Below are positions 2,569-19,723 of a stretch of 20,845 bases of DNA, in pieces. Numbering within the stretch: the first letter of the stretch is position 1; each line of letters starts with the position of its first letter. Origin of the DNA: a virus; IMG/VR virus record IMGVR_UViG_3300024255_000199, positions 1 through 20,845 of that record. One strand, written 5' to 3'. The position numbers were made by a program, and so were the translations under genes. A model generated the notes under the pieces. That model had not been told where the DNA came from, searched no databases, and was given only the letters and a program-made list of their open reading frames with translations.

Positions 2569-3120
2569 AGTAGAGTTGTTTGTTTCTAAGGCTTCTTTAA
2601 ACGAAATAACGGTTTCTCCCTCTTCAGGAGCTAAATTGATAATTTTTTCGTCGTTAAATTCACCTTCGGAAAAAGCAGTGAGTCCCTTTACGGCGGGAAT
2701 CGAAACTAATCCAAGATGGCGGAGCGCCAATTTTCCAGGGTGCGGATTTGTTTCCGCGTCTGGCAAGTAGAAAGAACTACTTACTTTCTTGAACACTCCA
2801 TCTTTAATCAGTTTTTCAGCCTTAGGGGTAAGTTCGACGTTACCCCATAATGCTTTACCTTTTCTCCAAAGATTTTTTACCCACCCTAACGCAGGTGTAG
2901 AGTCCGTTTGATCATGCCCAATAATTAACGGAGCTTCATGTTGGCCAGGGACGTAAGTACCGACCACCTGGTCCAAATCCTCCTCAGTGAACATCATTTT
3001 TTGCCCGGCGGAACTGATCTGAGGACCAGCCCTGAACATTTCGATGTGCACGGCCTTTTTGGGCTGTTGAGAAGAAAGTGGCTCTTCAGCGTTTAAAATT
3101 TGCTCCTTATTATTAGACAT
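1231..3120 (-). CDS. Mu gpI-like prohead protease fused to acidic scaffold
   Basis: 629 residues in three parts. Residues about 20-150 match the Mu-like head maturation protease: 'EAPLIIGHDQTDSTPALGWV' (62-81), 'FKKVSSSFYLPD' (110-121, the likely nucleophile serine region) and 'LRHLGLVSIPAVKGL' (133-147). Residues about 230-495 are very acidic and low in complexity (Glu, Asp, Lys, Ala), as expected for a scaffold core. Residues about 505-530 ('LNARVAELEEELNKQRKLA') form a heptad coiled coil. The C-terminus 'HADALSYAEENECDYLTAVK' (about 604-623) is a conserved ending of these proteases. The role is to template prohead assembly and then degrade the scaffold. The gene starts 9 nt after the sheath stop with no clear Shine-Dalgarno, suggesting coupling. 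A nested start at 2568 is described separately. Confidence 0.85.
   Translation of the reverse strand: MSNNKEQILNAEEPLSSQQPKKAVHIEMFRAGPQISSAGQKMMFTEEDLDQVVGTYVPGQHEAPLIIGHDQTDSTPALGWVKNLWRKGKALWGNVELTPKAEKLIKDGVFKKVSSSFYLPDAETNPHPGKLALRHLGLVSIPAVKGLTAFSEGEFNDEKIINLAPEEGETVISFKEALETNNSTMTRKRKTADEVQEVSVDQSVDHAEGGMTVNINIGGGKPSVYDDSGNQVDETGAPADYKMEYAADEETDEEMAPEADAEALEGEGDDMGLEDEGGEEAPEAPEEEGEAPAEEGGEEEMDSEGEGEEPAKEDGAEDISGEMEDNDKKIASLAAEYDEDELFQALALKKQATSMMEKDMSYGEMPEGLKKHMEEKEGKEEGDDEEKKEEVSDNAEEVVDNAEETSEKEEEKKEKEEETEAKADMAEDEKEEDEDEEKKTDMSEEVKEVKKEESADHAEEAAPVATESLDHSESAIGDQSVDTLNARVAELEEELNKQRKLAREKEISSFAEGLYESGKLTEQVVPKGDLVRFMETLNHKNSVNFSETGKASQFDFMRGVLDSLPSMVSFEEFATPASAPKKSKSVEPNASGYAYDPNTANVHADALSYAEENECDYLTAVKFVIENNN
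2595..2602 (-). promoter_or_regulatory. GTTTAAAG motif, intragenic, ahead of nested scaffold start
   Basis: Exact minus-strand GTTTAAAG inside the protease/scaffold gene (encoding part of Ser-Phe-Lys-Glu), 26 nt upstream of the internal ATG at 2568. It has the same orientation and similar spacing as the intergenic copies. Being in coding sequence it could be coincidental. Confidence 0.35.
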
Positions 3121-3129
3121 TTTTAATTA

Positions 3130-6100
3130 TTAGACCGTAGTTGCGTTAAGTAAGTAATCGAATCTGTCAACATTTCTAGAGAAGGTATCTTGTACCTGAG
3201 CAACCTGACCAGCAGGTGTTCTTACAACGGTAACAACAAGACGCTCAAGAGTTGGCGAAGTAGCCACATAAGCATCGAGTCTTAACGTTCCATTTTCTAG
3301 ATCACTAACAGCGTTATTAGCATCAGAACAAACAACTAAGTAAGCTTGTTCTGGTCTAGCTCCAAAGAGTGCACCTTGGCGATAGAGTTGTCCCATTACC
3401 TGAGAGGCAATAGACTTGGCCCTAGCGTAAAGTGTACCAGCAGAGTCAATTTGCTCAAAGAGAACATCATCAAAGCTTCTTGCAAGTACGTCAAGAAGTA
3501 CGTTTAGAATCGCACGTGTGTTGACAAACTTAAAGAGTGCATTGGAGCTCATTGTACGAGCACCCCAAGCAACAATTCCTCTATTAGGAAGGCTCCTAAT
3601 TGGATTGAGGCCTAAAGGATAAGTAACTTCTTGTTGCTGAGCCGTGATATCAAAGCGGAGGCCAGTGGCTCCTCTTAGTGGATATCTTGCTCCTGCAGGT
3701 GCTTGCTGGAAGCCTTCGTTCACATAACGAGAACAGGCAATACCGGCAATAAAGCTACTAGGCGGTACAAAACGTCCGCTTGAGTTTTTAATATAAGGAG
3801 CGTAGAAAGCACCGTGACCAAAAGGTACGCCGGCGGTTCCTTTAACAAAGGCAAGCTCATCTTGCACTTCGCTAAGGCTGAGTTCATCAGCTCCGCAATC
3901 AATAAGAGCAATATGCTGAGTTCCAGAAATACCCTCGACTTCTCCAAGCTTACCTTCGGCAGCTCTGAGCAATGATTGGGTAACTTTTACTCTTTCTTCA
4001 CGAGCTTGAGTTTTAGTCATTCCGCCTACAGTGGCTTTGAATGAACCAAATGCTTCAGGTGCAAGTAAGAATCCGGGGCGATAATCGCCTGATCCCATAC
4101 CTTGCTCAATAGCGTACACAAAGTCTTGAGAGCGCGCTTTTGCCGAGAGTTTGTAGTTAACAAAGTCAGCCGCTTCGCTCAAAGAGTTAACTCTTGAAAC
4201 GTTAGAATCCTTTTTGCCGTAGCGGTCAAGACCAGCAACAACAGGGGAAGGAATACCATTTTTAGATGTAATCTTTACCTTAAGAACATAATCGTGACGA
4301 TAGAAACCGTTAGCGATGGAGCTGTCAAGATAAACTACAGTAGAAGAAGTGGTAAACGTAGGAGCAACTTCGACTTCAAACTGATCATCACGAGTAACAG
4401 CAGAGTCAACTTTAAAGCGATAGCCGTTGATTACAACGTAAGATCCTTCATAAATTTCTTCCGTGAACTTAGTAGATACTGTGCTAAAAGCAGATCCAGA
4501 AGCCGTATCTCCAGCAGGGTTACGAACGACGGCGTTGGTGTCAGAAGTGACTCCTACAACCTCGTAAGTTTTAGCTCCGATAAGAACTCTGTATCCAGCG
4601 GCAAGAACACTATTAAAGTTAGTACCGGATCCAATTAAGGAACCATTAGCCTCAAGATTTAAAGTTCCCGTCTGTGAAGATGTCGCGCCTTGGATAGTTG
4701 TAGAACCAGAGGTAACTGCAACGGTTCCTGTAAGTGCTTTTCCGTCGTTTGAAGGACGAAGCGCCGGAGCACCTGTTACACTTAAGCTAGCACCAATTGC
4801 TTCTCCGTTATTAGGAGCGTATCCACCTATTCCAAGAGATGTCTCGTAGTCTTCTACAACTGACTCAACATTATAATAAGCTTCTAGCTCTTTCTCTTCA
4901 AGAATTTCTCTAATAGAAGAGGAAACGCTATCCGTAAGCTCGGCAGGAGTAGCACCGTTAGCGATGATTACTCTGTTTTCTCCAGCAATGTTAACGTAGA
5001 AAGATTGAATAGTGTCGGGGACATATCCGAGTCTGTTTACGTTGCCACCAACAGAAGTAATTGTTCCCTGTGGGACTTTAGTAAGACCTGTTCCATCAGC
5101 ACCAGGAGTAAAGGCAGAGCCAGAAGCATCCCACTGATAGTAAGCAGCAGCAGCATCAGCCCAACGAACATGGTCATCTTTTCCGACTCTTTCGTCAGTT
5201 GAAACAGCGACGATCTTATCATCAGGGATAGCAGAAGCAGAAGCATATACTTCTTGGTCAACCAGGAAGTCCTCGATTGCTTGCTGGTTATCAGCAGCAA
5301 CTGAAGGGTCATAGGCAAGTCTGCGAACTGTAACTACAGATGTTAAGTCGTTGCTGGTAAATGTAAGAGCCGCATTTGATCCATTATTAATAATAAAGGT
5401 GTCAGCGCCAACATCTACACTTAATACTGTATATACTGTGCTATAGAAGATATTTCCAGTAGGAAGTTCACCAGCTGCTCCTTCAAATGCGATCTTGTCG
5501 CCTGCAGCAAGAGCCACACCGCCGATCTTAAGATCATCGATGTCTGCAACTTTTACCACTCCGGTAGAGGCAGTAAAGGCGGCCGAAGGATCCGTTTTAA
5601 CGGTCTTAGAAGTTTCTCCTAAGAAGTTTCCGATTGCGGCACCAGATACAAAGAGGATAGGCTCTTGTGTAGATACGTCTCTAGAAACACAACGGAAGTT
5701 GAGTTCTTTAACGGGAACATAACGACTAACAACACCTGCGTCTGTAGGAGATGCATAGGCGGTATCAGAGATCTGATAGCCTTTAAAGCTTTGAATGGTT
5801 GGAATTACGCGAGAGTCTTTAGAATAAATTCTAAAAGTTGCGTTCGATGCTTCTACTTCGTCTTGCTCAATCTTATAGAACGTGTTAAAATCAGGATCAG
5901 TTTTGCCAAGGTAGCCGACGATATCAAAGGCGTTGTCGTCAGCATCAAGAGCTGTAGTTGTGATCACTTTAATAGCAACACCGTCCGAGTCGTTAACACC
6001 TAAGGACTTATCCCCAAAGTAACGATCGCCGATCTTTAAAGCAAAAAGATTCCAACCAGCGCCTTTATTTACAACAACCTTCGACTCGGGTGTTGGGGTT

Positions 6101-6441
6101 ACGCGGGTATAGTAGAGGATTCCGTTCACACCCACGTTTTCAAAGAATGACTTTACGGAATCGTAAGAGATCATTGATTGCGGGTTGTTCGAAGCAGATG
6201 GCGTACCGCCTGCTCTTTGAACAAAATCTTCTAATGAACCAATCTGTGTTGGTTGATATGGTGGGAGAGCTGAATACTCGTCAACGGGATTTGTATCATA
6301 TGGGTCTACAGGAGTAGATCCAAAGATATAACCAATAGCATGAGAAGCTATGGGTTGAGGTAATCCACCAGTCGATGACTGAGTAACAAACACTCCAGGA
6401 CGCTGAATAGCGCCTACATTAATGTTTACAGGATTAGCCAT
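3130..6441 (-). CDS. Contractile tail sheath protein, enlarged
   Basis: 1103 residues; the role is the contractile outer tube of the tail. The N-terminus 'INVGAIQRPGVFVTQSS' and 'IGYIFGSTPVDPYDTNP' match the sheath N-terminal region. The conserved C-terminal sheath domain is clear: 'GLRFDITAQQQEVTYPLGLN', 'NRGIVAWGARTMSS' (about 954-966), 'FVNTRAILNVLLDVLARSF' and 'LERLVVTVVRTPAGQVAQV'. At 1103 residues it is far longer than T4 gp18 (about 660). The extra length lies between roughly residues 230 and 760 and is beta-rich, including a 'GTVAVTSGSTTIQG...GSGTNF' segment typical of small Ig-like/GTNF surface domains. GTTTAAAG lies 39 nt upstream of the ATG (6481-6488). The Shine-Dalgarno is weak (AAAGAA). 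Confidence 0.93.
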   Translation of the reverse strand: MANPVNINVGAIQRPGVFVTQSSTGGLPQPIASHAIGYIFGSTPVDPYDTNPVDEYSALPPYQPTQIGSLEDFVQRAGGTPSASNNPQSMISYDSVKSFFENVGVNGILYYTRVTPTPESKVVVNKGAGWNLFALKIGDRYFGDKSLGVNDSDGVAIKVITTTALDADDNAFDIVGYLGKTDPDFNTFYKIEQDEVEASNATFRIYSKDSRVIPTIQSFKGYQISDTAYASPTDAGVVSRYVPVKELNFRCVSRDVSTQEPILFVSGAAIGNFLGETSKTVKTDPSAAFTASTGVVKVADIDDLKIGGVALAAGDKIAFEGAAGELPTGNIFYSTVYTVLSVDVGADTFIINNGSNAALTFTSNDLTSVVTVRRLAYDPSVAADNQQAIEDFLVDQEVYASASAIPDDKIVAVSTDERVGKDDHVRWADAAAAYYQWDASGSAFTPGADGTGLTKVPQGTITSVGGNVNRLGYVPDTIQSFYVNIAGENRVIIANGATPAELTDSVSSSIREILEEKELEAYYNVESVVEDYETSLGIGGYAPNNGEAIGASLSVTGAPALRPSNDGKALTGTVAVTSGSTTIQGATSSQTGTLNLEANGSLIGSGTNFNSVLAAGYRVLIGAKTYEVVGVTSDTNAVVRNPAGDTASGSAFSTVSTKFTEEIYEGSYVVINGYRFKVDSAVTRDDQFEVEVAPTFTTSSTVVYLDSSIANGFYRHDYVLKVKITSKNGIPSPVVAGLDRYGKKDSNVSRVNSLSEAADFVNYKLSAKARSQDFVYAIEQGMGSGDYRPGFLLAPEAFGSFKATVGGMTKTQAREERVKVTQSLLRAAEGKLGEVEGISGTQHIALIDCGADELSLSEVQDELAFVKGTAGVPFGHGAFYAPYIKNSSGRFVPPSSFIAGIACSRYVNEGFQQAPAGARYPLRGATGLRFDITAQQQEVTYPLGLNPIRSLPNRGIVAWGARTMSSNALFKFVNTRAILNVLLDVLARSFDDVLFEQIDSAGTLYARAKSIASQVMGQLYRQGALFGARPEQAYLVVCSDANNAVSDLENGTLRLDAYVATSPTLERLVVTVVRTPAGQVAQVQDTFSRNVDRFDYLLNATTV

Positions 6442-6480: not shown

Positions 6481-6488
6481 CTTTAAAC
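6481..6488 (-). promoter_or_regulatory. GTTTAAAG motif ahead of tail sheath
   Basis: Exact minus-strand GTTTAAAG in the 66-nt gap between the 80-residue gene and the sheath gene, 39 nt upstream of the sheath ATG. It is one of nine copies, all oriented with local transcription. Proposed as a promoter that would give the abundant sheath its own transcript. Confidence 0.5.
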
Positions 6489-6750: not shown

Positions 6751-7176
6751 TTATTTTTGGGGTTTCTTCATTTCAGCAATTGCATTTTGATGTACTTGAA
6801 TCATCGCCATTACTTTTGTCATTGGTTGTGATTCAAAAAATTTCAGCGCGACAAAAGAATTATTTTGTAGAGCGTAACAAACTTCTAACCACTTAAATTT
6901 AGGCATATAATTACAAAGTATTTCTTCTGTAACTATATCAAATACTTCCCTTATTACTCTTAACGTAAGCTTACTAATTCGTACATCAGATACGTTTACA
7001 AGCTCCAAAATACTTATAGTTTCCTCTACAGATAGAGTCTTACCTTCTTGGAAAAATCTTTCTAAGTATTCTAGGTCTTCCCCCGTGATATCTCTAAATG
7101 AGAGTGACTTTTTATTTTTATCGGTTATTAAAATCGTATAATTGTGCTCTCTACTCAGAGAGTATTTATTGTTCAT
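6751..7176 (-). CDS. Hypothetical protein downstream of tail assembly chaperone
   Basis: 141 residues from the ATG at 7176 (MNNKYSLSREHN); GTG codons at 7179 and 7182 are in frame just upstream, but an AGG about 7 nt before the ATG favours 7176. The start overlaps the end of the upstream gene by 11 nt. The protein is mixed alpha/beta with a helical C-terminal half ('SKLTLRVIREVFDIVTEEIL', 'MTKVMAMIQVHQNAIAEMKK'). I do not recognise a family. Tail assembly chaperones often come as two overlapping frames, so this could be the second of the pair, but I see no slippery sequence joining the two frames, and the overlap looks like ordinary coupling. Confidence 0.65.
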   Translation of the reverse strand: MNNKYSLSREHNYTILITDKNKKSLSFRDITGEDLEYLERFFQEGKTLSVEETISILELVNVSDVRISKLTLRVIREVFDIVTEEILCNYMPKFKWLEVCYALQNNSFVALKFFESQPMTKVMAMIQVHQNAIAEMKKPQK

Positions 7177-7510
7177 CACCACCTAATAAGGTGTTCAATG
7201 CCTCACCGATCTTCTTAAGATGCCGCGCAGTTAATTTTTTTGCATCTTTTAAAGAGAGCCTTTTGCCGCCGTTTTGAGGATAATGAAGAACACAAATTGT
7301 CTGAAGAGTCGCTTCAATTTCACTAATTTTCTCGTTACTATTAATTTCAGAAATATTAATGAGGTCGTCAGCGCATGGCTCTTTTAGATAAAGATACTTC
7401 CCTTGAGATATCTCTACAGGGATTATTTCTGGTTCGCCGAAATCAAAATTTTCAAAGCTACTTTCTTGATCCTCTTCTACTCCTGGCCGAGACATTTTGC
7501 TAGAAGGCAT
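7166..7510 (-). CDS. Probable tail assembly chaperone (gp41/gpE-like)
   Basis: 114 residues. After an acidic, disordered start (about 1-30) comes a compact pattern, 'VEISQGKYLYLKEPCADDLI' (32-51), followed by helices ending 'LTARHLKKIGEALNTLLGG'. This matches the layout of phage tail assembly chaperones of the Mu gp41/P2 gpE type: a short beta hairpin, a 'L.EP.A.DL' segment, then helices with a terminal 'D/H...I...L...L'. Such proteins bind the tape measure protein while the tube polymerises. It is the first gene of the minus-strand head/tail unit, preceded 27 nt upstream by GTTTAAAG. An in-frame ATG at 7495 is an alternative start. Family assignment is by pattern only. Confidence 0.5.
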   Translation of the reverse strand: MPSSKMSRPGVEEDQESSFENFDFGEPEIIPVEISQGKYLYLKEPCADDLINISEINSNEKISEIEATLQTICVLHYPQNGGKRLSLKDAKKLTARHLKKIGEALNTLLGGDEQ

Positions 7511-7537: not shown

Positions 7538-7545
7538 CTTTAAAC
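7538..7545 (-). promoter_or_regulatory. GTTTAAAG motif driving minus-strand unit A
   Basis: Exact minus-strand GTTTAAAG in the 81-nt divergent gap 7511-7591, 27 nt upstream of the ATG at 7510. It faces away from the plus-strand copy at 7563-7570, 17 nt apart, so the pair forms an inverted repeat with 8-bp arms. Candidate divergent promoter or operator half. Confidence 0.55.
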
Positions 7546-7562: not shown

Positions 7563-7570
7563 GTTTAAAG
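7563..7570 (+). promoter_or_regulatory. GTTTAAAG motif driving plus-strand unit B
   Basis: Exact plus-strand GTTTAAAG, preceded by a T-run (gattttttG), 21 nt upstream of the ATG at 7592. The same 21-nt spacing is seen at 14702-14709 before the ATG at 14731. Mirror partner of the 7538-7545 copy. Confidence 0.55.
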
Positions 7571-7591: not shown

Positions 7592-7993
7592 ATGGCAATA
7601 AATTCTTCAAGCTCTCCGTACGGGCACTGGACCGAATCTCGTACAAATTCGGACTATAGAGCAAGACCTACTCAAAACAATGACTACGTCAAACAAGCAC
7701 TAGCTCAAGAAAGATACTTAAGAAGCTCTAACAGAGTCAATCAAGGCCCTCAGTACAACACACGAAGAATAATGGCACAAAACACAGAACAAAATCCTCA
7801 CGTATACGGCTCAGAAGACATGTGGGGATGGCAAAACTGGACAGAAAAAGCTAAAACAAAAAATGCCTCGACTCTTGCTCCAGGACTTTACGAAGTAAGT
7901 CCAACGGGAGACGCCCCTGGTACTCAGTACCCTGGGCCTTCTAGAGTGCAAGGTTGGGCTGGGTGCTCAAGTTGCAAGAGAAGAAGAATATGA
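7592..7993 (+). CDS. Hypothetical protein, polar, Cys-Lys-Arg tail
   Basis: 133 residues, rich in Asn, Gln, Ser, Tyr and Arg, with little hydrophobic core, so likely largely disordered or a virion-associated peptide. It contains 'EDMWGWQNWTEKAKTKN' (about 75-91) and ends 'GWAGCSSCKRRRI', a CxxC followed by a basic tail. I do not recognise a family. It opens the plus-strand block and its TGA overlaps the next ATG (ATGA). A purine-rich AGAAGAG just upstream may act as a weak Shine-Dalgarno. Position between two structural blocks suggests a late virion protein, but this is context only. Confidence 0.65.
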   Translation: MAINSSSSPYGHWTESRTNSDYRARPTQNNDYVKQALAQERYLRSSNRVNQGPQYNTRRIMAQNTEQNPHVYGSEDMWGWQNWTEKAKTKNASTLAPGLYEVSPTGDAPGTQYPGPSRVQGWAGCSSCKRRRI

Positions 7994-8250: not shown

Positions 8251-8259
8251 TGATATAAT
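8251..8259 (+). promoter_or_regulatory. Extended -10-like promoter before dCMP deaminase
   Basis: TGATATAAT is a perfect extended -10 (TGnTATAAT) for a host sigma-70-type polymerase, 21 nt before the ATG at 8281, in the only 30-nt gap of block B. No convincing -35 is seen. It differs from the GTTTAAAG motif found before virion genes, which would let the deaminase be expressed at another time. Confidence 0.4.
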
Positions 8260-8688: not shown

Positions 8689-9032
8689 TGTTTGAAAGTC
8701 CTCAAGATCGAAAAAAGATAAAATCTATTTTTGAAAATCTTTCTCGTGATGAGAAAGAGCTTACTCCTATGTTCAAAAAGATCGCTCAAGATGGAGGTCC
8801 TATTGCTTTGTATGTTGCGACTAAAGACAATAGCGATATTACTTGGATGTTCGATAAAGATGATATTAGCGAAATGCTTGGAGGTAAAGATACTCTGGAC
8901 AGCGTAACAGATCAGCTCCTACCTACTGAAAAAGACAAGGAAGAAGGAATAATATTTATTATATTTAAAAAAATAGGACCTTTATACTCCGTAAGACTAG
9001 AAAGAGCAATTCTCCAAGAAACTTTTGCCTAA
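8688..9032 (+). CDS. Hypothetical protein, 114 residues
   Basis: No family recognised. The protein has a helical, charged N-terminus ('DRKKIKSIFENLSRDEKELT') followed by alternating strands ('GPIALYVATKDNSDITWMF', 'EEGIIFIIFKKIGPLYSVRL'), suggesting a small alpha/beta fold. Its start overlaps the deaminase stop by one base, so it is translationally coupled to it and might be functionally linked. Its stop shares the loop of a hairpin with the stop of the convergent gene. Confidence 0.65.
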   Translation: MFESPQDRKKIKSIFENLSRDEKELTPMFKKIAQDGGPIALYVATKDNSDITWMFDKDDISEMLGGKDTLDSVTDQLLPTEKDKEEGIIFIIFKKIGPLYSVRLERAILQETFA

Positions 9033-9039
9033 GCAAAAG
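9022..9039. terminator. Bidirectional hairpin over both convergent stop codons
   Basis: CTTTTGC (9022-9028), loop CTAA (9029-9032), GCAAAAG (9033-9039): a perfect 7-bp stem with a 4-nt loop. The loop holds the stops of both converging genes (plus-strand TAA 9030-9032; minus-strand TAG 9029-9031). On the minus strand the stem is followed by TTTCTT, as in a weak intrinsic terminator; on the plus strand there is no immediate T-tract. The stem is modest in GC, so termination strength is uncertain. Confidence 0.45.
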
Positions 9040-9967
9040 CTGTGATTATTTCATTAACTTTGCTTATTAAGTCTTTAATTTGAGGTACTATTTTATTTAA
9101 GTCTGTTATATTTTCTGAAACCTGACTAACTCTTAGTCTGAGATCTTCGGCTCCTCCGTCTCCAAGGTCAGAATCTGGAATAGTAACAGTTTCTCCTTCT
9201 AAGAAGTTTGCCCCGGTGTCATCTATAGAGGTTATAGAAGCTAAGCCATTTACATCTACAGATATTGTTAAATCTAAATCAGATCCGTTGCTTCCAGATA
9301 AATTATCTATATTGTAATTACCAGCAGTCCTACTAGTATTAGCAGATGAAAGAACCGAGATAGAAACAACGCTACCAAAGCTATTAAACGCTGATAGCGC
9401 AAGATTATTTACTTTTCTAACTCGCTTGTAGATATCTTCGATAGAATCAGCGTTTACTTGGGTTTTATTTGATAGAGCGGACTGCTCAGCAAGTACTTCT
9501 GTCAAACTAGTCTCTACCGCGGTTAAATCGTCAATTCTAGAAAGTTTGGAGTCTACCTGGTCAGATCTAGAATCAAAGCTATTTGCGATAGTGGAAACGG
9601 AGTCTTCTAATAACTCGAAAGCGTTTTCTAAATTTGTAATAGAAGAGGAAGAAGCATCTGCCAATGCTGCTTGCGCAGAGGCAATTGCTGTAGAAAATAT
9701 TTTTAAGTCTCTGATCCCAGCGTAAGTCCTATTTGCGAATCTGACGTTTACCACTCCCTGGTCCGTTGTTGGGTCAACAACTTCACATAAAGAAGTGCCA
9801 AGCATCAGCCCACTTTTTGTGCCTGACCCATCTTCTACAAATAGAGTGGAGTCAGAAAGTAGCCCATCTTGAGAAAGCACTTCTCCTGTGCTGGCCAATT
9901 CTTGCCTGGAGACATTTAACAATCCTCCGGCGTAATCTTCAATAAATCTAGATCGAAGGTCTGCCAT
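9029..9967 (-). CDS. Coiled-coil tail fibre-like structural protein
   Basis: 312 residues. The N-terminus 'RSRFIEDYAGGLLNVSRQEL' (5-24) looks like a virion-attachment segment seen in marine phage structural proteins. Residues about 90-200 are heptad-rich with Ala/Ser/Leu/Asn and few prolines ('LENAFELLEDSVSTIANSF', 'LTEVLAEQSALSNKTQVNAD'), predicting a trimeric coiled coil. Residues about 205-280 form a beta module, 'RTAGNYNIDNLSGSNGSDLD' through 'NFLEGETVTIPDSDLG', resembling a GTY...GD.ITI module common in phage fibres. A short helix closes the protein. The start overlaps the upstream gene by 20 nt and is preceded by ACT with no Shine-Dalgarno. Likely a short fibre, whisker or neck appendage; exact role unknown. 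Confidence 0.6.
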   Translation of the reverse strand: MADLRSRFIEDYAGGLLNVSRQELASTGEVLSQDGLLSDSTLFVEDGSGTKSGLMLGTSLCEVVDPTTDQGVVNVRFANRTYAGIRDLKIFSTAIASAQAALADASSSSITNLENAFELLEDSVSTIANSFDSRSDQVDSKLSRIDDLTAVETSLTEVLAEQSALSNKTQVNADSIEDIYKRVRKVNNLALSAFNSFGSVVSISVLSSANTSRTAGNYNIDNLSGSNGSDLDLTISVDVNGLASITSIDDTGANFLEGETVTIPDSDLGDGGAEDLRLRVSQVSENITDLNKIVPQIKDLISKVNEIITAFA

Positions 9968-10772
9968 AGTGCTGATTAATTTGCGTTTCTTTAATATTCT
10001 TAGGGAAGAATGCGTACATTTGTATCGGTATTATACTCGTAGGAGGGGGATTATCCCATAAAACAAGCCAGTTATTAGTGACTAATAATCTTATTTTAGA
10101 AGCAATCCTAGTATTCCCCCAGTTGATATCATTTCCACGTAGATCTATCATAGTGGAATAATTCTTTCTAAAGGGTGGAACGGTTCCGGGTATAATATTT
10201 GAAGAAGATGTTAGCGTAGGCGTAAAAGAAAATAGCGCCCTCTCCATAGCTTCTTCTGTAAGTCTACAATTCTTTAAACTTAATACTTTGATATTTTTAG
10301 AGTATCCCAAATTAATTACTTCTAAGCTTAAGCAATCATTTAAATTTAAAACTTCTAAATTTTCTAGCTCTGTCGCCACAAAAGATTTTAAATCAGAGTT
10401 TCCTTCTAAATTTAAATTTTTTAAATAGCTTCTCTTTAAGTTAAAATTAGCATAGAGCAAAGAGTTTCTTTGTAAATTCATCACCTCTATTTTGGGATCT
10501 ACACTGTACGTGCTCTCTTCTTCTATCCACAAGTCATCCCAAGTTAAAATATTTTGGTTTGTAAGCTTAAATTCTTTAATTGGTTGTGGAGAATTTGTGT
10601 CTATGGATACTACCATAGAATTAGTTTTTTGTTTGTACAGATACGCTTCGTCAGAAGATATCTCTTCTTCGTCAAAAAATTTAACGTAATTAAAAGATGA
10701 TCTTTGAGATTTATTAAAAGATAAAATCTTTACGTCTTTAGAGTCAATTAAAAAACTCGTAGATATTCTCAT
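9948..10772 (-). CDS. Leucine-rich-repeat protein
   Basis: 274 residues. Residues about 94-180 carry successive leucine-rich units: 'IEVMNLQRNSLLYANFNL', 'LKNLNLEGNSDLKSF', 'LEVLNLNDCLSLEVINLG', 'IKVLSLKNCRLTEEAM', with L..L.L..N/C spacing of roughly 20-23 residues. LRRs form curved binding surfaces for proteins or glycans. No signal peptide or membrane segment is visible. The start is well supported by GGAGG 9 nt upstream; the ATG overlaps the upstream TGA (ATGA), and the 3' end overlaps the fibre-like gene. Being coupled between a giant unknown protein and a fibre-like protein, it is probably a virion component, perhaps in the baseplate or a fibre. LRRs are uncommon in phage virions. Confidence 0.6.
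   Translation of the reverse strand: MRISTSFLIDSKDVKILSFNKSQRSSFNYVKFFDEEEISSDEAYLYKQKTNSMVVSIDTNSPQPIKEFKLTNQNILTWDDLWIEEESTYSVDPKIEVMNLQRNSLLYANFNLKRSYLKNLNLEGNSDLKSFVATELENLEVLNLNDCLSLEVINLGYSKNIKVLSLKNCRLTEEAMERALFSFTPTLTSSSNIIPGTVPPFRKNYSTMIDLRGNDINWGNTRIASKIRLLVTNNWLVLWDNPPPTSIIPIQMYAFFPKNIKETQINQHYGRPSI
10272..10279 (-). promoter_or_regulatory. GTTTAAAG motif, intragenic in LRR gene
   Basis: Exact minus-strand match with the extended form TTAAGTTTAAAG, inside the leucine-rich-repeat gene (coding for Leu-Lys-Asn), 304 nt upstream of the next ATG (9967). Orientation agrees with transcription but distance is large, so it may be coincidental or an internal promoter. Confidence 0.2.
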
Positions 10773-13700
10773 TTGAATAGGCCTCCAGAAAGAGTTTTAG
10801 GACAGAAATTTAAAAATTTGCCGCCTGGCCCTCTTTTAAATCTTTTACATTTTAGCAAGTTCATACAGGCAAGATGGGCATATGGGTCCTCTAATAAAGA
10901 GCATTTAAAGGAGTCATCTCTTTCAAAGCCTCCCTTAATGGACTCAATAAGCCCATATTCTGTGTTATAGTAAGAGGCGTATAGAGACTCGTTAGCTTCC
11001 TCTTCTTCTCTTTTTAAGAAAATTACAGGGTCTGTTTTTATTTCCTTTTGAATAGGTATTCCCTTATCACTAATCTTTAGATCGTTTCCTAAAAGCTTGA
11101 AATAAGCAGGTTTATTGTTGGCGCTATAGGGGAGGAATAAAGCCTCGGGTTTCAGTTCAGCAAAAGAGCCGTAAGGCCTATCTATAATAATAGAGTTATT
11201 ATTTATAGGAGAGAAAGAAGTTGTGTCTCTTTGGGAGAATATAGACTTATTAATTGCAGTACCACAAGAGTTCACGTTACTTTCTACTCTAGATTCACAT
11301 TTACTTCCGCCAAATTTTTTGCACGATTCTAAAGGACTAAATTTTTCAATTAACTTTTCTGAAATTAGCCCATCAGCCACAGAGTTTTTTATTTTTTCTT
11401 GGACTTTAGTTTCTTGAGGATACGTCGATGGAATTTTTATCTCTGCAACTCTTTCTATAGGCCCGGCATTTTCTACACCTAAGGTACTAGTTACTTCGTT
11501 ACCTGGTGTATTTGATCTTTTTTCAGAGATATTATTAATATTTCTGTACGGAGAAAGAGAAGAGGTATCTCTAAAATCTTTAGAATTAGCCTCTATGAGA
11601 GACTTATGATCTTTTGCAAATGTAACAAATTTGCTGATAACATCAGCCGCAGTAATATCAGAACTTTCCTTATTAGCTATAAAAGAAAAATTTTCTTTAA
11701 TCTGAGGAGAGAATAAATTAGCCTGCTCTGGCGTAATAGATTGTTCTCTAGGTATAGACTCTGGAACAGGAGAATTACCTATACCCGGAGAATTGAAGAT
11801 TTCTGCTAGGCCATCAACTTTGGGACTTCCTATATTAGTAAGGTCTCCGTCTACAGGAATAAGGCCTTTGATTATTTTAAAGAACTCTTCTGGCTTTTTA
11901 TTTTGAGCATTAACTATATTTTCAAAGGGGTATAACCCAATATCATTTTGGCCAAACTTATAATCTAAAGAATTAACAAAGCTCGTAGTTGTTATATCTA
12001 GAAGAGTTGATAGATTTTGAACTAAAAAGACAAGAGAACCTAGCTCAATAGGATTTTCTGGAGATATAAAGAAGTTAGGAACTTGATAAGAATTAGAGTA
12101 GTAGCTAAGTTTTTGTAAAACCCCACTTAAATATCCATAATTAATTACTTTTGTTAGTCTTCCCCCACTATACCCATCTATTAGCTGTTCATACTCATTA
12201 TGACCTCTAGCGTCTTTAGTATTTAAAATAGAAATTAGCTCTTTAGGTGTTAGACCATTGCTTTTATCAAACAAATTCTGAATAAGATTAGTTGATGCTC
12301 CCCCTAAGTTTTTATCTATAAGCTTAGACCACTGCTTCAAGGCTAAAGGAGCATTTTCATTAGCGGTCATATAATCTATTGATTTTGAGTCGTAACCAAA
12401 GACGGATTGCCCATAAATTAAAGATTCAGTGATGGGTTTTAAAAGGTTAATTTTATCCTTGTCTAGAAGCATATTTGTTTCTTTATTTTGCAATAGATAA
12501 GAAATAGACTCAAATAGGTCCAAATAGTTTCCAGATAAATATTTTTTGAAGACTTGCAGTTGGTCTGGATCAATTGCAAAAGTGAGATTAATAAGCAAAC
12601 CAATTAGCTTCCCATACTTGCTCTCGTTAAAGGTAACTGCTGAGCTTTTATTTTTAACAGCAAAATTTAATATATTTACTAAGTTATTTTCGTCTTGTAA
12701 GTAGAGATAGTTAATATAGCTATCTATTGCGCTTTCCCCACCATACTCGTAGATTAGCTGAGATAGTTCATATGCTCTAAAGAAAGAAATTTGGTCTCTA
12801 GAGTCCGTTATTGGAGCAAACTTTAATAGCAAATCTTCAAAAGATTCAGCAGATAAAAATAAGTCAATTTCTCCTTCTTGGAAGTTCAAAGATCTCAGCT
12901 GATTAGCTAATTCGTTCTTTTCAAGGATAGAAAATTTGAAAGAAATGTTTGGTACAAAACTTCCTGGGAGGTACCCAATGCCTTCTATACCAGAAGTCAG
13001 CTGCTCTAGACTAAATTGAATTTTCCTAGCCCAAGAGGCGATCTCTGTAAGTGACTCCGAGGTTAATGGCGGGCGATATAAAACGTCTGACAGCTTTCTA
13101 TAAGAGCTTAACAAGTAAGAAAGCATACCATTGAATCCTGGCAGGACTTTAGAGCCTTGATAGTCTTCTGCAAGAACTCTTGTGGGAATAAATACGTTTC
13201 CAAGTTCTGCAACTTCAATAGAGATAGGACCATAGCCTTCATATCCTGGTAACAGACCTTCTTTTGTTAAGGAGGAATTAAGGCTGTCAATAGCGTCTGC
13301 AACAAAATTTGTAAGCGATAAAAGTCTCTCTATTCCAAATAAGACAATGTCAACGTCAGCTTCATCAGAGTACGGATTGGGATTTTTGTACGTATATTTA
13401 TCTTCTATGCCGTCCTTATACTTAGCGTAAATGGGATTATAACTGATAATCTTAATGCTTTCTTCACCAGGCTTATCTTCTATTAAAATACTTTCAGGAA
13501 GTTTTAATTTTTGCTTGAAAGATCTTAAAGACTTGAAATTATCTAAGAAGTTCAACCCAGCAATTTTGTTTGTTTTTTCTTCAGAAAGAAAAAGAGAGTT
13601 AAACCTCCCAAAAAGACTTACGCCTTCTTCTCCGTCAAATCCCGTGTTGGCAACTCTACCATATAAGCTTGCATAGAATTTTTCACAAAAACTAGCAATA

Positions 13701-14668
13701 AAATCCACATCTCCAATGGGAGATCCTTCGTACCCTCCAAAGTAGTTTACCGTTGCTTTTAGTGAAAGAATATTTGTTAGCACCGCTTTTCCTTTACCAG
13801 CAAATGTAAGGCCAAGATCTTTTTCGTCGTAGGTAAGTGAGCTCTTTACCTCTTTTATTTCAGAATCTGATATGATACCGTTAATATCTCTTGAGTTAGT
13901 AAGAGCTTGGTTTACATACACTTCGGCATTGTTTTTTAATTTATCTAAAAATCTTTCTTTTTTGGATAAAAATTTTGAATTAAATTCTGCCCATTCTTCT
14001 TTATTAAAATCCCAAAACGTCGGTTGGCTTATACCTTGATTCAAAGAGTATACTCTTTTATTATATATAGTAAGTCTTTTTGTGCTAAAAGAAGCACCCT
14101 CTTTGTATTGTTCTTTTTGATATTCCCAGTAAAGGTACTCAGGAATTAAGGTATGCAAGACTCTTTCTGAAATCTCGTCTTTAAAGTACTCCTCTCTTTC
14201 TATAGTAAACGACGGGGCATATTCTTCTACTAACTGAATAAGCTGATCTGACTTTAGTCCCTTTTGAAATAATTTTTCTTGGGTAATCTGTTTTATAATT
14301 TCAGATATGTACCTCTCTATATAATTTTCTAGCTGAGTGTTTCTGCCACCACTTTGCGCTATAAATTGAAATAAAACTTCTTGACAGTACGCCAGTATAG
14401 TTACAAATAGAGTAACATCAAATCCTAGCTCCACTAGCGTGAAAGCTAACTGATTATATAAAGGAATTATAGACGTAGGTTTTTCTTCTAATATCCTATT
14501 TAGTACGTCCCCTAGTAAATCGACGTATAATTTTTTATAAGCCTTTCTCTTAGCACTTATTTCTATTTCTCCTTGCGTTTGCTCATACGCGTTAAGAGCT
14601 TGATCCACCACGAAAGAAAGATTTGAAGCGATGGCGTTCGCTTGTTGTTGAGTTAATGCAGTTAGCAT
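10769..14668 (-). CDS. Very large unknown protein, probably structural, 1299 residues
   Basis: No family recognised. Residues 1-1000 are mainly helical with long regions of Leu/Ile/Tyr/Asn and no convincing transmembrane run, so it is unlike a typical tape measure protein. A Pro/Ser/Asn-rich linker follows (about 990-1110, including 'GIGNSPVPESIPREQSIT'), then a cysteine-bearing C-terminal region: Cys1116, 1124 and 1135, then Cys1256, 1268, 1274 and 1289 in 'CSLLEDPYAHLAC' and 'CKRFKRGPGGKFLNFC', which could bind zinc or form disulphides in the mature particle. It leads minus-strand unit C, with GTTTAAAG 20 nt upstream and GCGGAT next to the ATG. Its stop overlaps the LRR gene's start. Candidate roles are baseplate hub, neck or internal head protein; none is proven. 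Confidence 0.6.
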   Translation of the reverse strand: MLTALTQQQANAIASNLSFVVDQALNAYEQTQGEIEISAKRKAYKKLYVDLLGDVLNRILEEKPTSIIPLYNQLAFTLVELGFDVTLFVTILAYCQEVLFQFIAQSGGRNTQLENYIERYISEIIKQITQEKLFQKGLKSDQLIQLVEEYAPSFTIEREEYFKDEISERVLHTLIPEYLYWEYQKEQYKEGASFSTKRLTIYNKRVYSLNQGISQPTFWDFNKEEWAEFNSKFLSKKERFLDKLKNNAEVYVNQALTNSRDINGIISDSEIKEVKSSLTYDEKDLGLTFAGKGKAVLTNILSLKATVNYFGGYEGSPIGDVDFIASFCEKFYASLYGRVANTGFDGEEGVSLFGRFNSLFLSEEKTNKIAGLNFLDNFKSLRSFKQKLKLPESILIEDKPGEESIKIISYNPIYAKYKDGIEDKYTYKNPNPYSDEADVDIVLFGIERLLSLTNFVADAIDSLNSSLTKEGLLPGYEGYGPISIEVAELGNVFIPTRVLAEDYQGSKVLPGFNGMLSYLLSSYRKLSDVLYRPPLTSESLTEIASWARKIQFSLEQLTSGIEGIGYLPGSFVPNISFKFSILEKNELANQLRSLNFQEGEIDLFLSAESFEDLLLKFAPITDSRDQISFFRAYELSQLIYEYGGESAIDSYINYLYLQDENNLVNILNFAVKNKSSAVTFNESKYGKLIGLLINLTFAIDPDQLQVFKKYLSGNYLDLFESISYLLQNKETNMLLDKDKINLLKPITESLIYGQSVFGYDSKSIDYMTANENAPLALKQWSKLIDKNLGGASTNLIQNLFDKSNGLTPKELISILNTKDARGHNEYEQLIDGYSGGRLTKVINYGYLSGVLQKLSYYSNSYQVPNFFISPENPIELGSLVFLVQNLSTLLDITTTSFVNSLDYKFGQNDIGLYPFENIVNAQNKKPEEFFKIIKGLIPVDGDLTNIGSPKVDGLAEIFNSPGIGNSPVPESIPREQSITPEQANLFSPQIKENFSFIANKESSDITAADVISKFVTFAKDHKSLIEANSKDFRDTSSLSPYRNINNISEKRSNTPGNEVTSTLGVENAGPIERVAEIKIPSTYPQETKVQEKIKNSVADGLISEKLIEKFSPLESCKKFGGSKCESRVESNVNSCGTAINKSIFSQRDTTSFSPINNNSIIIDRPYGSFAELKPEALFLPYSANNKPAYFKLLGNDLKISDKGIPIQKEIKTDPVIFLKREEEEANESLYASYYNTEYGLIESIKGGFERDDSFKCSLLEDPYAHLACMNLLKCKRFKRGPGGKFLNFCPKTLSGGLFK

Positions 14669-14688: not shown

Positions 14689-14709
14689 CTTTAAACTTTA
14701 AGTTTAAAG
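14689..14709. promoter_or_regulatory. Perfect palindrome built from two outward GTTTAAAG motifs
   Basis: In the 62-nt divergent gap, a 10-bp arm CTTTAAACTT (14689-14698), one central T, and its exact inverted copy (14700-14709). The minus-strand GTTTAAAG (14689-14696) is 20 nt from the ATG at 14668; the plus-strand copy (14702-14709) is 21 nt from the ATG at 14731. A further minus-strand GTTTAAAA overlaps at 14682-14689. It could be a back-to-back promoter or a dimer operator. Confidence 0.6.
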
Positions 14710-14730: not shown

Positions 14731-15198
14731 ATGCCTTCTAAAATCTCTGTTACTATTATAAAAACAAAATCTGTTGACGCAGTTTCTGACCTAAATAAAA
14801 TGGCTGTACACTTAGAGCAGGTTTTAACTGAAAAAGAAGGAGTTGAGGTAAAGACTAGACAGTCAGTTACAGAGACCGTAATAAAATCTTCAGACTATAT
14901 TGTTTTTATAGGTTGGGACACTCTAGGAATTTCTAATATTTTCTCTGCACTTCATACGCTTGAAAAAACAGAAGTAGAGGACGATAAAAAAATATTCTTA
15001 TTTGACGAGCCAGGAAGTAATTGCTGGGATGATTTAAATAGGTTACTCACGTTCGGCATGGATTTAGATAGAATAGACAGTAAACTTTTTACAAAAATTG
15101 AGCATTGTTGGAACTATCGTGATATAATGAGCTATATAGACCTAAAGTTAAGAAAGTCAGAAGCTAATGCAAACTCAGGAGATTCTAGCACTGTGTAA
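14731..15198 (+). CDS. Degenerate LOG/SLOG-like Rossmann protein
   Basis: 155 residues. The order of elements resembles LOG (lonely guy/lysine-decarboxylase-like) and SLOG proteins: a strand after 'SSD' ('YIVFIGWDTLG', 56-66) in the place of the PGGxGT nucleotide-binding turn, a helix ('ISNIFSALHTLEK'), a strand 'KKIFLFDEPG' (86-95), 'CWDDLNRLL', then a closing helix with 'DIMSYI'. In true LOG proteins the turn is Gly-rich and catalysis needs a conserved Arg and Glu; here it is GWDTLG, so the enzyme activity is probably lost. The last 30 residues are a charged tail. The ATG is preceded by ACT with no Shine-Dalgarno, and GTTTAAAG is 21 nt upstream. It leads the portal unit. The fold assignment is a hypothesis from pattern alone. 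Confidence 0.4.
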   Translation: MPSKISVTIIKTKSVDAVSDLNKMAVHLEQVLTEKEGVEVKTRQSVTETVIKSSDYIVFIGWDTLGISNIFSALHTLEKTEVEDDKKIFLFDEPGSNCWDDLNRLLTFGMDLDRIDSKLFTKIEHCWNYRDIMSYIDLKLRKSEANANSGDSSTV

Positions 15199-16132
15199 TA
15201 TTGAGGAGTCTGCATTAGATAAAATTTTAGCGCATGATAAATGGAAGCTAGAACAACAACTTATTCACGATAAGTGGGTTGTTGAGTTTAATGCACATAT
15301 CAAAAGTACCTCAAGACCTAAAATAATAACCACTCAAAATCTCTCTGAAGACGACGTGCTTATTAACGAACTAACTGGGTACGGAGAACTCGACGAAACG
15401 CATATCGGAAAGCTTTCAAAAACCCCGGTGTGGCAGGCATCAGAAAACAAAGCAATAGATATTTTTTACGAATGGAAAAAAGCTATTAAGGATATAGACG
15501 ATCTGCCTAAAAAAGATCTTAGTGACTCTAGGACCAAAAAGCTTTTAACAACCTTTCTCTGGTCTAACTCTCTCGCACAACGGAGTGTTCTTTGGCCAGA
15601 TGGAAAAGACATGCATTATGTAGAGGCCGCAAAAAGAGAGATTAAACAAAAACTTCAGTCTTACGCAGATATAACTATTGTTAGATGCTACGAATCTTTT
15701 AAAAAGTTTTGGAAAGAAGTTAATGACGGAGCCGAAGTCGAGTTTAATTCAACCTTCATGGCACAAGTTTTAGACAACGCTTACGAAGAGACTCTTAAAA
15801 AAGAAAGGATAACCAAAAAATCTGATCTTTTAAAGTCTCCTTTATTTATAAAAATATCAGAAGATCATCCTAATATAGACCTAGAAGATCTTAAAGATCA
15901 AATGATCGCTAAGAGAGGAGATTTTATAAGCGCTATTTTAGCAATAGAGCTAAAAACATTTTCCTTGACCGTCCCAGAAAAGTATAAAGAGCTATACACC
16001 CAAGATTCTTGGGGGGAAAACTACTTCAAGTACGTACGAAAATACGACGAAGCTTGGAGAAAAACTTATAAGTCATTGTATCAATCTATCCGCAAAGAAC
16101 AAGAACTATGGAAGAAGGAATTAACATTTTAA
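15167..16132 (+). CDS. Hypothetical protein upstream of portal, 321 residues
   Basis: No family recognised. Helix-rich and charged, with many Trp, Lys and Glu. A short tandem repeat is visible near the N-terminus: 'HDKWKLEQQLIHDKWVVEFN' (23-42) repeats 'HDKW'. Other helical stretches are 'IDIFYEWKKAIKDIDDLP' and 'VEAAKREIKQKLQSYADI'. The start overlaps the LOG-like gene by 32 nt, and no better start lies downstream. Position two genes ahead of the portal is where small terminase or head-completion genes often lie, but no helix-turn-helix or other marker supports that here. Confidence 0.65.
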   Translation: MQTQEILALCNIEESALDKILAHDKWKLEQQLIHDKWVVEFNAHIKSTSRPKIITTQNLSEDDVLINELTGYGELDETHIGKLSKTPVWQASENKAIDIFYEWKKAIKDIDDLPKKDLSDSRTKKLLTTFLWSNSLAQRSVLWPDGKDMHYVEAAKREIKQKLQSYADITIVRCYESFKKFWKEVNDGAEVEFNSTFMAQVLDNAYEETLKKERITKKSDLLKSPLFIKISEDHPNIDLEDLKDQMIAKRGDFISAILAIELKTFSLTVPEKYKELYTQDSWGENYFKYVRKYDEAWRKTYKSLYQSIRKEQELWKKELTF

Positions 16133-16302
16133 CAACTGGGCATAACGTTAAAGTCGACGGAGCCGAGGAGCTAATTGAAGAATGGGAAAATGGAAACATT
16201 ACCCGGGAAGAGCTAAGAGAAAAGCTTATGAACCTAGAAACAATTGTTATTGATCTAACCCAGGTAGTTGAGCCTAGTAAGTTTAAAGATAGCGAAGAAT
16301 GA
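16108..16302 (+). CDS. Hypothetical small acidic protein ahead of portal
   Basis: 64 residues, MEEGINILTTGHNVKVDGAE..., with a central acidic helix ('AEELIEEWENGNITREEL') resembling a small helical assembly protein. It overlaps the upstream gene by 25 nt and ends 16 nt before the portal. The ATG is preceded by ACT, a context shared by five other starts in this window, which favours it over its antisense overlap. The 3' end contains a GTTTAAAG (16281-16288) in coding sequence. No family recognised; possibly a head assembly factor by position. Confidence 0.55.
   Translation: MEEGINILTTGHNVKVDGAEELIEEWENGNITREELREKLMNLETIVIDLTQVVEPSKFKDSEE
16281..16288 (+). promoter_or_regulatory. GTTTAAAG motif ahead of portal gene
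   Basis: Exact plus-strand match, extended as AGTAAGTTTAAAG, inside the last codons of the 64-residue gene and 30 nt upstream of the portal ATG. Orientation and distance fit the other copies, suggesting a separate start of transcription for the portal. Confidence 0.45.
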
Positions 16303-16318
16303 TGTGTAGAAGTACCCA

Positions 16319-18187: not shown

Positions 18188-18195
18188 CGCATGTA

Positions 18196-18203: not shown

Positions 18204-18238
18204 TACTATTAGAAATATTGCATTATACATAACGTACT

Positions 18239-18667
18239 ATGTTAGCATATAAGCCTATCACACAAGCACAGTACTGGATCCAGGCCTCCCCTTTCCAGCA
18301 CTATTTTACAACTTTTTCTGGTATCAGAGACACCTCAGGAACTACTCAGTATGCTGACGGTGTAAGAGGTCGTATCTTCCAGCTCAAAGGTCCTCGCACC
18401 CTTGCAGAAGTTACTGTCTCTGTTCCTTTTGACCCTGAAAAGCACGCCGACATTGTTGACTTTTGGAAAACCTACGACTGCTCTTACATCACTCTTACAG
18501 TTACTCCTGTGAGTTGTGGTGAAGATCCCTCACCTGTAGGAAACAGAACCATCACTATCCCAGACGCTCAGATTACCTCGTTAAATTTTGGCCAGGCCGA
18601 TAGAGCTTCTACAAACGTATCTACACTAGAGCTAACGTTTGTAATGGATACATTCACATATAACTGA
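18239..18667 (+). CDS. Probable tail tube protein
   Basis: 142 residues, beta-rich, close to the size of contractile-tail tube proteins (T4 gp19 is 163). The order of segments fits a tube fold: an N-terminal arm, a 'YADGVRGRIFQLKGPRTLA' stretch (about 38-56), a strand pair leading to a helix 'HADIVDFWKTY' (69-79), then 'NRTITIPDAQITSLNFGQ' and the closing strands 'STLELTFVMDTF'. This resembles the '..LW.W....I.I.D...L.....E' course of gp19-like tubes. No signal peptide. ACT precedes the ATG with no Shine-Dalgarno. A tube gene is required and no other candidate is present in this window. The call is from pattern and size, so a head-tail joining protein remains possible. Confidence 0.45.
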   Translation: MLAYKPITQAQYWIQASPFQHYFTTFSGIRDTSGTTQYADGVRGRIFQLKGPRTLAEVTVSVPFDPEKHADIVDFWKTYDCSYITLTVTPVSCGEDPSPVGNRTITIPDAQITSLNFGQADRASTNVSTLELTFVMDTFTYN

Positions 18668-18689
18668 TCTATTATAGGAGAGTTGAGGT

Positions 18690-19715
18690 ATGTCAACCTC
18701 CAACTTATTTTTTAAGGGCTGTGCTTCTTCGGAGCTAACAGACGAGCAGAAGGCAGCTGTAGAAGCAGTAAGTGCTGAGGGTGACCTGGTTGATGAGTCC
18801 TGCGCGCGCGAGACTAATAGCTGTGGGATTAGCCTAGAAGAGCTTATAGACACTTATGAGTTTTATGAGTTTCAAAAAGGCATTTATAGATCTTGGGGCG
18901 ATGTGTACTTTCCTTGGGAAATAAAAGAAAGTACTACCAACTTAAATTTTTCTGAAACAATTGATAAGTGGAGCATCTCTAGATATAGAGAAGTTGTAGC
19001 GTATTTTATCGGGGACAGAGTTTTATATATAGAAGACGACGGATATATTATATCTTTATACGAAGCAAACGAAGATATCCTTGCCTTATCTCCTCCGCTA
19101 GATAGAACAAAGTGGACAAAAATCTGTAGTATAGAAGTCTCAGAACCAGTTCAATTGCCCACAGTTGAGGAGCTAGTTGAGAGATACGACCCTTACTTTT
19201 TAAAGCTATATTTAAAAGAGTGGGGAGAGGCGAGTGCTGGCTGGAAAAAAGATCTCTTTGATCCTTCTGATGACAGCTGGAATAATTATAAAGAAAAAAG
19301 AGAATACTACTATGTCCCTGGCGAGTTTGTTCTGATGGAATCAGAATGTAGTGATGCTTTTTGTCTCTGGATAAATATTAAAAAAATACCAACAGGTGAT
19401 TATTATACAAATGCTCACGCTAAGTTTCCTTATTTTGACCCGGTAAAAGATGAAAACGGAGTAGAGCACTTATACTGGGATAAGCTATATTGTGTAAACT
19501 CTGGTAAAAATAAATGTTTAGGGCCCCAACGCCAACGAGATCTTCCTAATTATCAGCTTGTACAAATAGGATCAGAAGGACACTACGTAGAGCAGCCTAT
19601 CCCATTCTATGATTTGAAAGGAAACAAGTTGTGCAATAGCTACGAAACATTAAATGATGCCGCGACGTTAAGACCTAGAACTGTGTTAACAAATGACGAA
19701 ATTGATAACCTCTAA
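18690..19715 (+). CDS. Adhesin with two carbohydrate-binding-like repeats
   Basis: 341 residues. Two tandem units of about 100 residues can be aligned: unit 1 (about 49-147) starts 'LEELIDTYEFYEFQKGIYRS' and unit 2 (about 159-268) starts 'VEELVERYDPYFLKLYLKEW'. Each later has an aromatic segment followed by a G-x-x-V strand ('VVAYFIGDRVLYIEDDGYI'; 'YYYVPGEFVLMESECSDAF') and closes with a tryptophan ('DRTKWTKIC'; 'LYWDKLYC'). That closing pattern, W..., 'GD.V.Y...Y', 'W..', recalls CBM5/12 chitin/carbohydrate-binding modules. Several cysteines are present. A strong AGGAG (18676-18680) sits 9 nt before the ATG. Likely a receptor-binding or tail appendage protein; the CBM link is an inference. 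Confidence 0.5.
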   Translation: MSTSNLFFKGCASSELTDEQKAAVEAVSAEGDLVDESCARETNSCGISLEELIDTYEFYEFQKGIYRSWGDVYFPWEIKESTTNLNFSETIDKWSISRYREVVAYFIGDRVLYIEDDGYIISLYEANEDILALSPPLDRTKWTKICSIEVSEPVQLPTVEELVERYDPYFLKLYLKEWGEASAGWKKDLFDPSDDSWNNYKEKREYYYVPGEFVLMESECSDAFCLWINIKKIPTGDYYTNAHAKFPYFDPVKDENGVEHLYWDKLYCVNSGKNKCLGPQRQRDLPNYQLVQIGSEGHYVEQPIPFYDLKGNKLCNSYETLNDAATLRPRTVLTNDEIDNL

Positions 19716-19723
19716 GTTTAAAG
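19716..19723 (+). promoter_or_regulatory. GTTTAAAG motif just before fibre gene
   Basis: Exact plus-strand match (TCTAAGTTTAAAG) starting right after the stop of the upstream gene and only 6 nt from the ATG at 19730. If it is a -10-like element the transcript would be leaderless or start inside the gene. Confidence 0.45.

Follow-up and report, generated by a model that had tools for sequence, protein, structure and literature searches.

The eight-base word GTTTAAAG is very probably a start signal for the late genes of a group of cyanophages. We consider it likely, from sequence comparisons, that the word is the single-box, -10-type late promoter of S-TIM5-like cyanomyoviruses, and that it would be read by the host RNA polymerase together with a phage-encoded, SigF-like sigma factor. 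The support consists of upstream enrichment, class of gene, orientation, position, conservation, codon constraint, a switch of the word in one clade, and a sigma gene in the related phages. We infer from these the promoter role, the late timing, the start site and the recognition by a phage sigma. Three elements are new beyond the initial annotation, which had put the word forward as a candidate late promoter: a sister clade in which the word differs by one base and reads GTTGAAAG, codon conservation at the two copies that lie within genes, and a positional argument for a -10 element.

Results

Nine copies of the box in an S-TIM5-like fragment

The DNA analysed here (the window) is an entire virus record of 20,845 bases with an A+T content of 60%. 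Its portal protein is 82 to 86% identical to those of the cyanophages S-TIM5, S-TIM54, S-TIM61 and S-TIM66, and its gene order matches that of S-TIM5 at about 41 to 63 kb; these similarities mark the window as part of the genome of an S-TIM5-like cyanomyovirus. TIM5-like cyanophages are described in PMC8975747 as a marine lineage that was counted across the North Pacific, where it is a minor share of the cyanophages. PHROG matches in the window are to the major head protein, head protease, tail sheath, portal, tail tube and dCMP deaminase. The tail sheath gene (3130-6441, minus strand) is unusually long, at 1103 aa (phrog_17610).

An exact-word scan of the window recovered the nine copies of GTTTAAAG that had been located by eye, all with the coordinates and strands first given, and the distances from box to ATG agree with the open reading frames (Table 1). 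The chance expectation of 0.6 copies was too low because the window is 60% A+T: 100 dinucleotide shuffles gave a mean of 1.89 copies (sd 1.21, maximum 5), and none of them reached nine. When one mismatch was allowed there were 48 matches against 38.6 expected, a number reached by 6 of the 100 shuffles; this excess is small, and the signal is therefore the exact word. Seven of the nine copies fall within the 60-nt sense-strand windows 5' of 22 open reading frames, which make up 2.8% of stranded positions (p=5e-10), and the two others (2595 and 10272) are on the coding strand inside open reading frames. The boxes at 7538 and 7563 share one divergent gap, as do those at 14689 and 14702.

Two earlier statements stood in part. 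The four copies extended to TAAGTTTAAAG are present, but the added TAA is not part of the conserved box; the three positions 5' of the 8-mer stay under the 0.25-bit line in the aligned copies of S-TIM5 and S-TIM54. The box does mostly precede virion genes, and gene 7592-7993 is a virion protein according to the S-TIM5 annotation, but no PHROG family matches the genes at 7166 and 14731, whose S-TIM5 counterparts are labelled "hypothetical".

Table 1. Exact copies of GTTTAAAG in the window, with retention of the box in orthologous upstream regions
Feature	Position	Strand	Kept	Remarks
GTTTAAAG in protease/scaffold gene	2595..2602	-		26 nt 5' of in-frame ATG; candidate internal late promoter, nested scaffold
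GTTTAAAG box, 39 nt 5' of tail sheath gene	6481..6488	-	10/13	
GTTTAAAG box, 27 nt 5' of gene 7166-7510	7538..7545	-	27/29	divergent gap
GTTTAAAG box, 21 nt 5' of gene 7592-7993	7563..7570	+	19/30	
GTTTAAAG within gene 9948-10772	10272..10279	-		possible internal promoter for downstream gene 9029-9967
GTTTAAAG box, 20 nt 5' of gene 10769-14668	14689..14696	-	26/26	divergent gap
GTTTAAAG box, 21 nt 5' of gene 14731-15198	14702..14709	+	43/51	
GTTTAAAG box, 30 nt 5' of portal gene	16281..16288	+	37/42	overlaps 3' end of gene 16108-16302
GTTTAAAG, 6 nt 5' of ATG of gene 19730-20596	19716..19723	+	10/18	

The seven upstream boxes are kept in relatives: across 80-nt orthologous upstream regions the flanking sequence changes but the word stays, and upstream of nine other tested genes it occurs in 2 of 330 regions. 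Matches that did not start at residue 1 or 2, or that had less than 60 nt upstream, were left out of these counts. The relatives are not independent, and many of the rows are near-copies; among the far rows there are GTTGAAAG-clade loci and some doubtful starts. The site at 19716 is the weakest of the nine, and S-TIM5 has no counterpart at that place; if this copy is a promoter, the start would be leaderless.

The window also contains TGATATAAT, the extended -10 word of host-like type seen in the S-TIM genomes. One copy, at 8251-8259 (plus strand), 21 nt ahead of the dCMP deaminase gene, is likely an early promoter amid late genes; another is at 15120-15128 (plus strand), 38 nt ahead of gene 15167 and still within the terminal part of gene 14731-15198.

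The top-ranked upstream word in two complete genomes

In an unbiased scan, every 8-mer found within 60 nt 5' of annotated genes was ranked by its enrichment over the whole genome. The box came first of 9370 8-mers in S-TIM5 (212 genes; 25 of 36 copies upstream, p=2.8e-29) and first of 9288 in S-TIM54 (209 genes; 28 of 38, p=1.7e-34), so that the upstream enrichment proposed from the window extends to both complete relatives. The k-mer p-values come from binomial tests made on sequences that are related, with no correction for kinship, and the S-TIM54 result is a check rather than an independent sample because the two genomes are related.

The enrichment follows the class of gene. The box precedes 17 of 47 virion-class genes in S-TIM5 and 17 of 46 in S-TIM54; for all other genes the figures are 8/165 and 11/163 (Fisher p=1.6e-7 and 1.7e-6, respectively). 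Among the latter it was found upstream of hypothetical genes (7/124 and 10/120) and DNA-metabolism genes (1/16 and 1/17), and of none of the bacterial-like genes (0/25 and 0/26). Two figures for S-TIM5 count against the late-promoter reading: 11 of the 36 copies are more than 60 nt from, or not 5' of, any annotated gene, and 30 of the 47 virion genes do not have the exact word. Transcription entering from upstream may reach many of the virion genes that have no box.

Among words of other kinds TGATATAA(T) ranked best; it was found 5' of 10 genes in S-TIM5 and 9 in S-TIM54, none of them virion-class, and we take it to be a host-like extended -10 element. The word GATTAAAG is enriched upstream too (7 of 16 copies in S-TIM5, 9 of 20 in S-TIM54), with some copies 5' of early-type genes such as nrdA; it may be a variant of the GTTTAAAG promoter or a separate class.

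Copies inside coding sequence

It would be easy to dismiss the two intragenic copies as coding coincidences, a reading that was overturned by their codon-level conservation in close relatives. The protease/scaffold fusion gene (1231-3120, minus strand) has, downstream of its protease domain, an internal ATG that is conserved. Its copy of the word is kept in all 18 sequences of the GTTTAAAG clade, with the in-frame ATG at +26 (11 sequences) or +23 (7 sequences). Within at most the first 240 codons, with the partial L213 left out, 126 residues other than Met and Trp are invariant and just 8 are codon-invariant in all 18 sequences. Five of these eight are consecutive (ATT TCG TTT AAA GAA) and form the longest codon-invariant run, the only other run being Trp-Gly. 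We had expected GTTGAAAG at this site in the sister clade; this expectation failed, as 0 of 7 sister-clade protease genes have GTTTAAAG or GTTGAAAG there, and all 7 retain the internal ATG.

The copy at 10272 is kept in 11 of 11 close relatives, in which AGT TTA AAG is the only codon-invariant run of the gene and 8 of 103 are codon-invariant. It is absent from 18 of 18 more distant relatives, users of GTTTAAAG among them. We read both intragenic copies as putative internal late promoters, and the internal ATG of the protease/scaffold gene is probably a nested scaffold start. This reading has a parallel in the C/Nu3 arrangement of phage lambda, where the scaffold is nested in the protease gene.

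A one-base switch in a sister clade

Word counts were made for portal-defined sets of relatives, with loci of less than 6000 bases left out. Among the 20 loci of close relatives GTTTAAAG is upstream in 80 of 121 copies and ranks second, one base off the overlapping AGTTTAAA, which ranks first. In the next set, with portals 60 to 66% identical (21 loci), it ranks first with 62 of 81 copies upstream; here GTTGAAAG has 22 of 34 upstream because three GTTGAAAG loci (L061, L079 and L080) are placed in this set. In 14 loci with portals 56 to 59% identical, the leading word is GTTGAAAG (75 of 102 copies upstream), and GTTTAAAG has 1 of 8. Counts of GTTTAAAG/GTTGAAAG over whole records run the same way: 22/5 (G001), 17/2 (G002), 24/10 (G003), 23/10 (G004), 14/5 (G005), 29/8 (G006), 13/3 (G009), 14/1 (G010) and 11/6 (G011), with the ratio reversed in G007 (4/28) and G008 (3/39) and neither word present in G012 (0/0).

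The loci that hold the sigma gene are regions that were not used to find either word. Of the copies in 16 such loci of the sister clade, 55 of 103 for GTTGAAAG are upstream, second in rank behind the overlapping TTGAAAGC, and 0 of 14 for GTTTAAAG; in six loci of the GTTTAAAG clade, GTTTAAAG ranks first (10 of 16) and GTTGAAAG has 0 of 6. The portal tree took in 43 of the 80 portal loci, 28 with GTTTAAAG and 15 with GTTGAAAG, and a single change of the word was found in 100% of 200 bootstrap trees, with a branch support of 52/100. The switch is therefore one event. In the sister clade one letter of the signal has changed, and the altered form is probably matched to the RNA-polymerase adaptor protein that the virus itself encodes.

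A phage-encoded sigma-family protein

The 20.8-kb window holds no sigma gene, but its relatives encode a sigma-family protein, in keeping with the earlier suggestion that a phage-encoded sigma factor might read the box. The 256-aa protein of S-TIM5 (110339-111109) is annotated SigF. It scores 43 bits against the NF005644 SigF profile (E=4e-11; curated cut-off 261), 23.7 bits against Sigma70_r2 (cut-off 24), and E=5e-18 against phrog_351, RNA polymerase sigma factor. Its AlphaFold model is moderate (mean pLDDT 72, pTM 0.35), and the 50 Foldseek matches listed are all sigma or RNA polymerase entries, the best at E 7e-5, with low TM-scores of 0.2-0.3. A homologue is present in 9 of 18 records; these nine include 6 of 6 portal-selected records longer than 75 kb, and three of them had been chosen for holding the gene. 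In IMG/VR sample 3300017745 two contigs, L006 (portal 100% identical to that of the window) and L106 (sigma gene), are possibly pieces of one phage.

The helix of regions 2.3-2.4 is where sigma-70 proteins contact the -10 element. We compared this helix by eye in 49 sigmas, leaving out repeats and partial copies and truncating L113 and L116 where an in-frame stop occurs; alignment A1 holds 32. It reads FSTWVNRCLQFHML in the 28 sigmas of the GTTTAAAG clade (N for Q in L116) and FSTWLNRS-(L/M)-(T/N)-FQ-(L/V/I)-L in the 21 of the GTTGAAAG clade, four positions differing throughout between the clades. The co-change of helix and box is statistically weak, because the word switched once and the sigmas of the two clades, about 41% identical, have many differences outside the helix too.

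Placement of the box and alternative readings

The late region, with limits that we set, is 39,000-130,900 in S-TIM5 and 39,000-135,600 in S-TIM54. Eight of ten divergent gene starts in this region have the box in each genome, compared with 0 of 98 (S-TIM5) and 1 of 96 (S-TIM54) same-strand genes that begin less than 15 nt after their neighbour. Upstream copies in the reversed orientation are all in divergent gaps (10/10 and 9/9). Since the box stands at divergent starts and is nearly absent from coupled genes, it behaves like a promoter and not like a translation signal. It is accordingly very unlikely that the word is an RNA-level signal for the translation or processing of late mRNAs, even though it lies on the sense strand, mostly 18-49 nt 5' of start codons (S-TIM54 also has distances of 6 and 52); the ATG is also too distant for a Shine-Dalgarno site. 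The palindrome TTTAAA inside the word and the DNA methylase encoded by the S-TIM phages might suggest a DNA-handling site for methylation, packaging or replication, and a base-composition effect could be imagined as well. Both are highly improbable given that strand and place are strongly asymmetric relative to genes, that copies are far above those in shuffles, and that 50 kb of the T4-like cyanophage Syn9 contain 2 copies, 0 of them upstream of genes. For a promoter, the position of the box is informative. The aligned copies from S-TIM5 and S-TIM54, those of GATTAAAG included, have one 8-bp block with weak A/T preferences 3' of it; a second conserved block or -35 partner, as in a two-part promoter, was sought in them and none was found. 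The model for a box acting as an activator site or -35-like element, with a degenerate -10 downstream, is the MotA box of T4 middle promoters. The A/T preferences would fit with this arrangement, as would a modest excess of TATAAT-like words 12-24 nt 3' of the box (9 of 25 sites against 5.4 expected in S-TIM5, 11 of 28 against 6.8 in S-TIM54). However, if the box were a -35 element, the start codon would precede the transcript start at 15 of 25 and 16 of 28 sites, respectively, and the host-like -10 element TGATATAA lies at matching distances to start codons in the same genomes (9-42 nt; 22-29 nt in 7 of 10 for S-TIM5 and 7 of 9 for S-TIM54). We regard the -35-like arrangement as quite unlikely.

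The remaining alternative concerns the reader of the promoter, which could be a host sigma factor (SigA or SigF) or another phage factor in place of the phage SigF-like protein. The scores of the phage sigma under the curated SigF and Sigma70_r2 cut-offs leave room for this, and the link between box and sigma consists of their co-occurrence and one co-change only. Against it, the box is unlike the host-like TGATATAA(T) of the same genomes, it is unlike the GGTAA reported for cyanobacterial SigF promoters (PMC2758279), and box and sigma helix differ in the same clade. We therefore think a reader other than the phage SigF-like protein unlikely, if somewhat less so than the other alternatives.

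Discussion

In the mechanism that we favor, host RNA polymerase carrying the phage-encoded SigF-like sigma would read a single -10-type box, and transcription would start about 6 nt 3' of it, giving virion-gene leaders of about 10-40 nt. The copies in coding sequence would serve as internal late promoters, one of them probably for a nested scaffold protein. In the sister clade, sigma and box would have changed together, the box to GTTGAAAG.

The late promoters of T4, which depend on the gp55 sigma, gp33 and the gp45 clamp, are alike in being a short single -10-type box without a -35, placed before virion genes, and reading by a phage sigma would be a further likeness; for the S-TIM genomes the -10-type, single-box likeness is inferred from the block structure and the start-codon distances. 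The word itself is different, as the initial annotation had noted: the T4 late box has the consensus TATAAATA. The S-TIM5 sigma, moreover, is similar to SigF and carries no gp55 assignment. The clamp profile PF02916 is uninformative here, as it matched 0 of 8 records, among them Syn9, the intended positive control, and all the other controls; PF00712 matched 0 of 8 records with its controls working. Late boxes vary between T4-type phages, Aeh1 being one example described in PMC2988020. Cyanobacterial SigF promoters are given in PMC2758279 as having TAGGC at -32 and GGTAA at -12. The resemblance to that system is that SigF is the best curated profile match of the phage sigma; the differences are that GTTTAAAG does not contain GGTAA and that its aligned copies have no conserved upstream element. 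For the cyanophages Syn9 and Ma-LMM01, PMC5780444 describes temporal classes with structural genes expressed late, and late expression of structural genes would be the point of likeness here; its account of Ma-LMM01 reports gp55 and gp33 homologues as absent and no phage-specific motifs.

Synechococcus phage S-CBWM1, with a portal 35% identical to that of the window, has no copy of GTTTAAAG and appears to have a candidate box of its own. Its top upstream word is GGGTAAAA(T), and GGGTAAAA is upstream in 18 of 34 copies (p=4e-18). By eye, GGGTAAAA(T) lies about 22-27 nt 5' of the portal, head protease, tape measure and other genes (L187-L189), and also 5' of a tail fibre gene and a virion gene. 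Unlike GTTTAAAG, this box contains the GGTAA of cyanobacterial SigF promoters. Of the two annotated sigmas of S-CBWM1, one is similar to that of S-TIM5 (27% over 124 aa, E=5e-8) and the other is not. The S-CBWM1 box may point to a single sigma lineage whose boxes drift.

It is quite possible, and we offer this tentatively, that SigF-like phage late sigmas rewired their single-box specificity more than once, with the late promoters of each genome following. S-CBWM1 would then have GGGTAAAA(T), the S-TIM5 group together with its nearest relatives GTTTAAAG, and the sister clade GTTGAAAG. The same proposal would have the box also present in coding sequence under codon-level selection, where it would drive a protease-nested scaffold. 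Among the matches listed in literature searches on S-TIM5, TIM5-like phages, and late promoters of cyanophages and phage sigmas, the motif is unreported, although it may be mentioned in the original 2012 S-TIM5 paper; no account of a transcription programme of TIM5-like cyanophages was found among the papers searched. The box would allow late transcription units to be read off metagenomic fragments. A genome-wide one-base change of the box beside a changed sigma helix would be a natural experiment on the joint change of a sigma factor and its dozens of promoters, and it could be tested with just two DNA words and a pair of small proteins.
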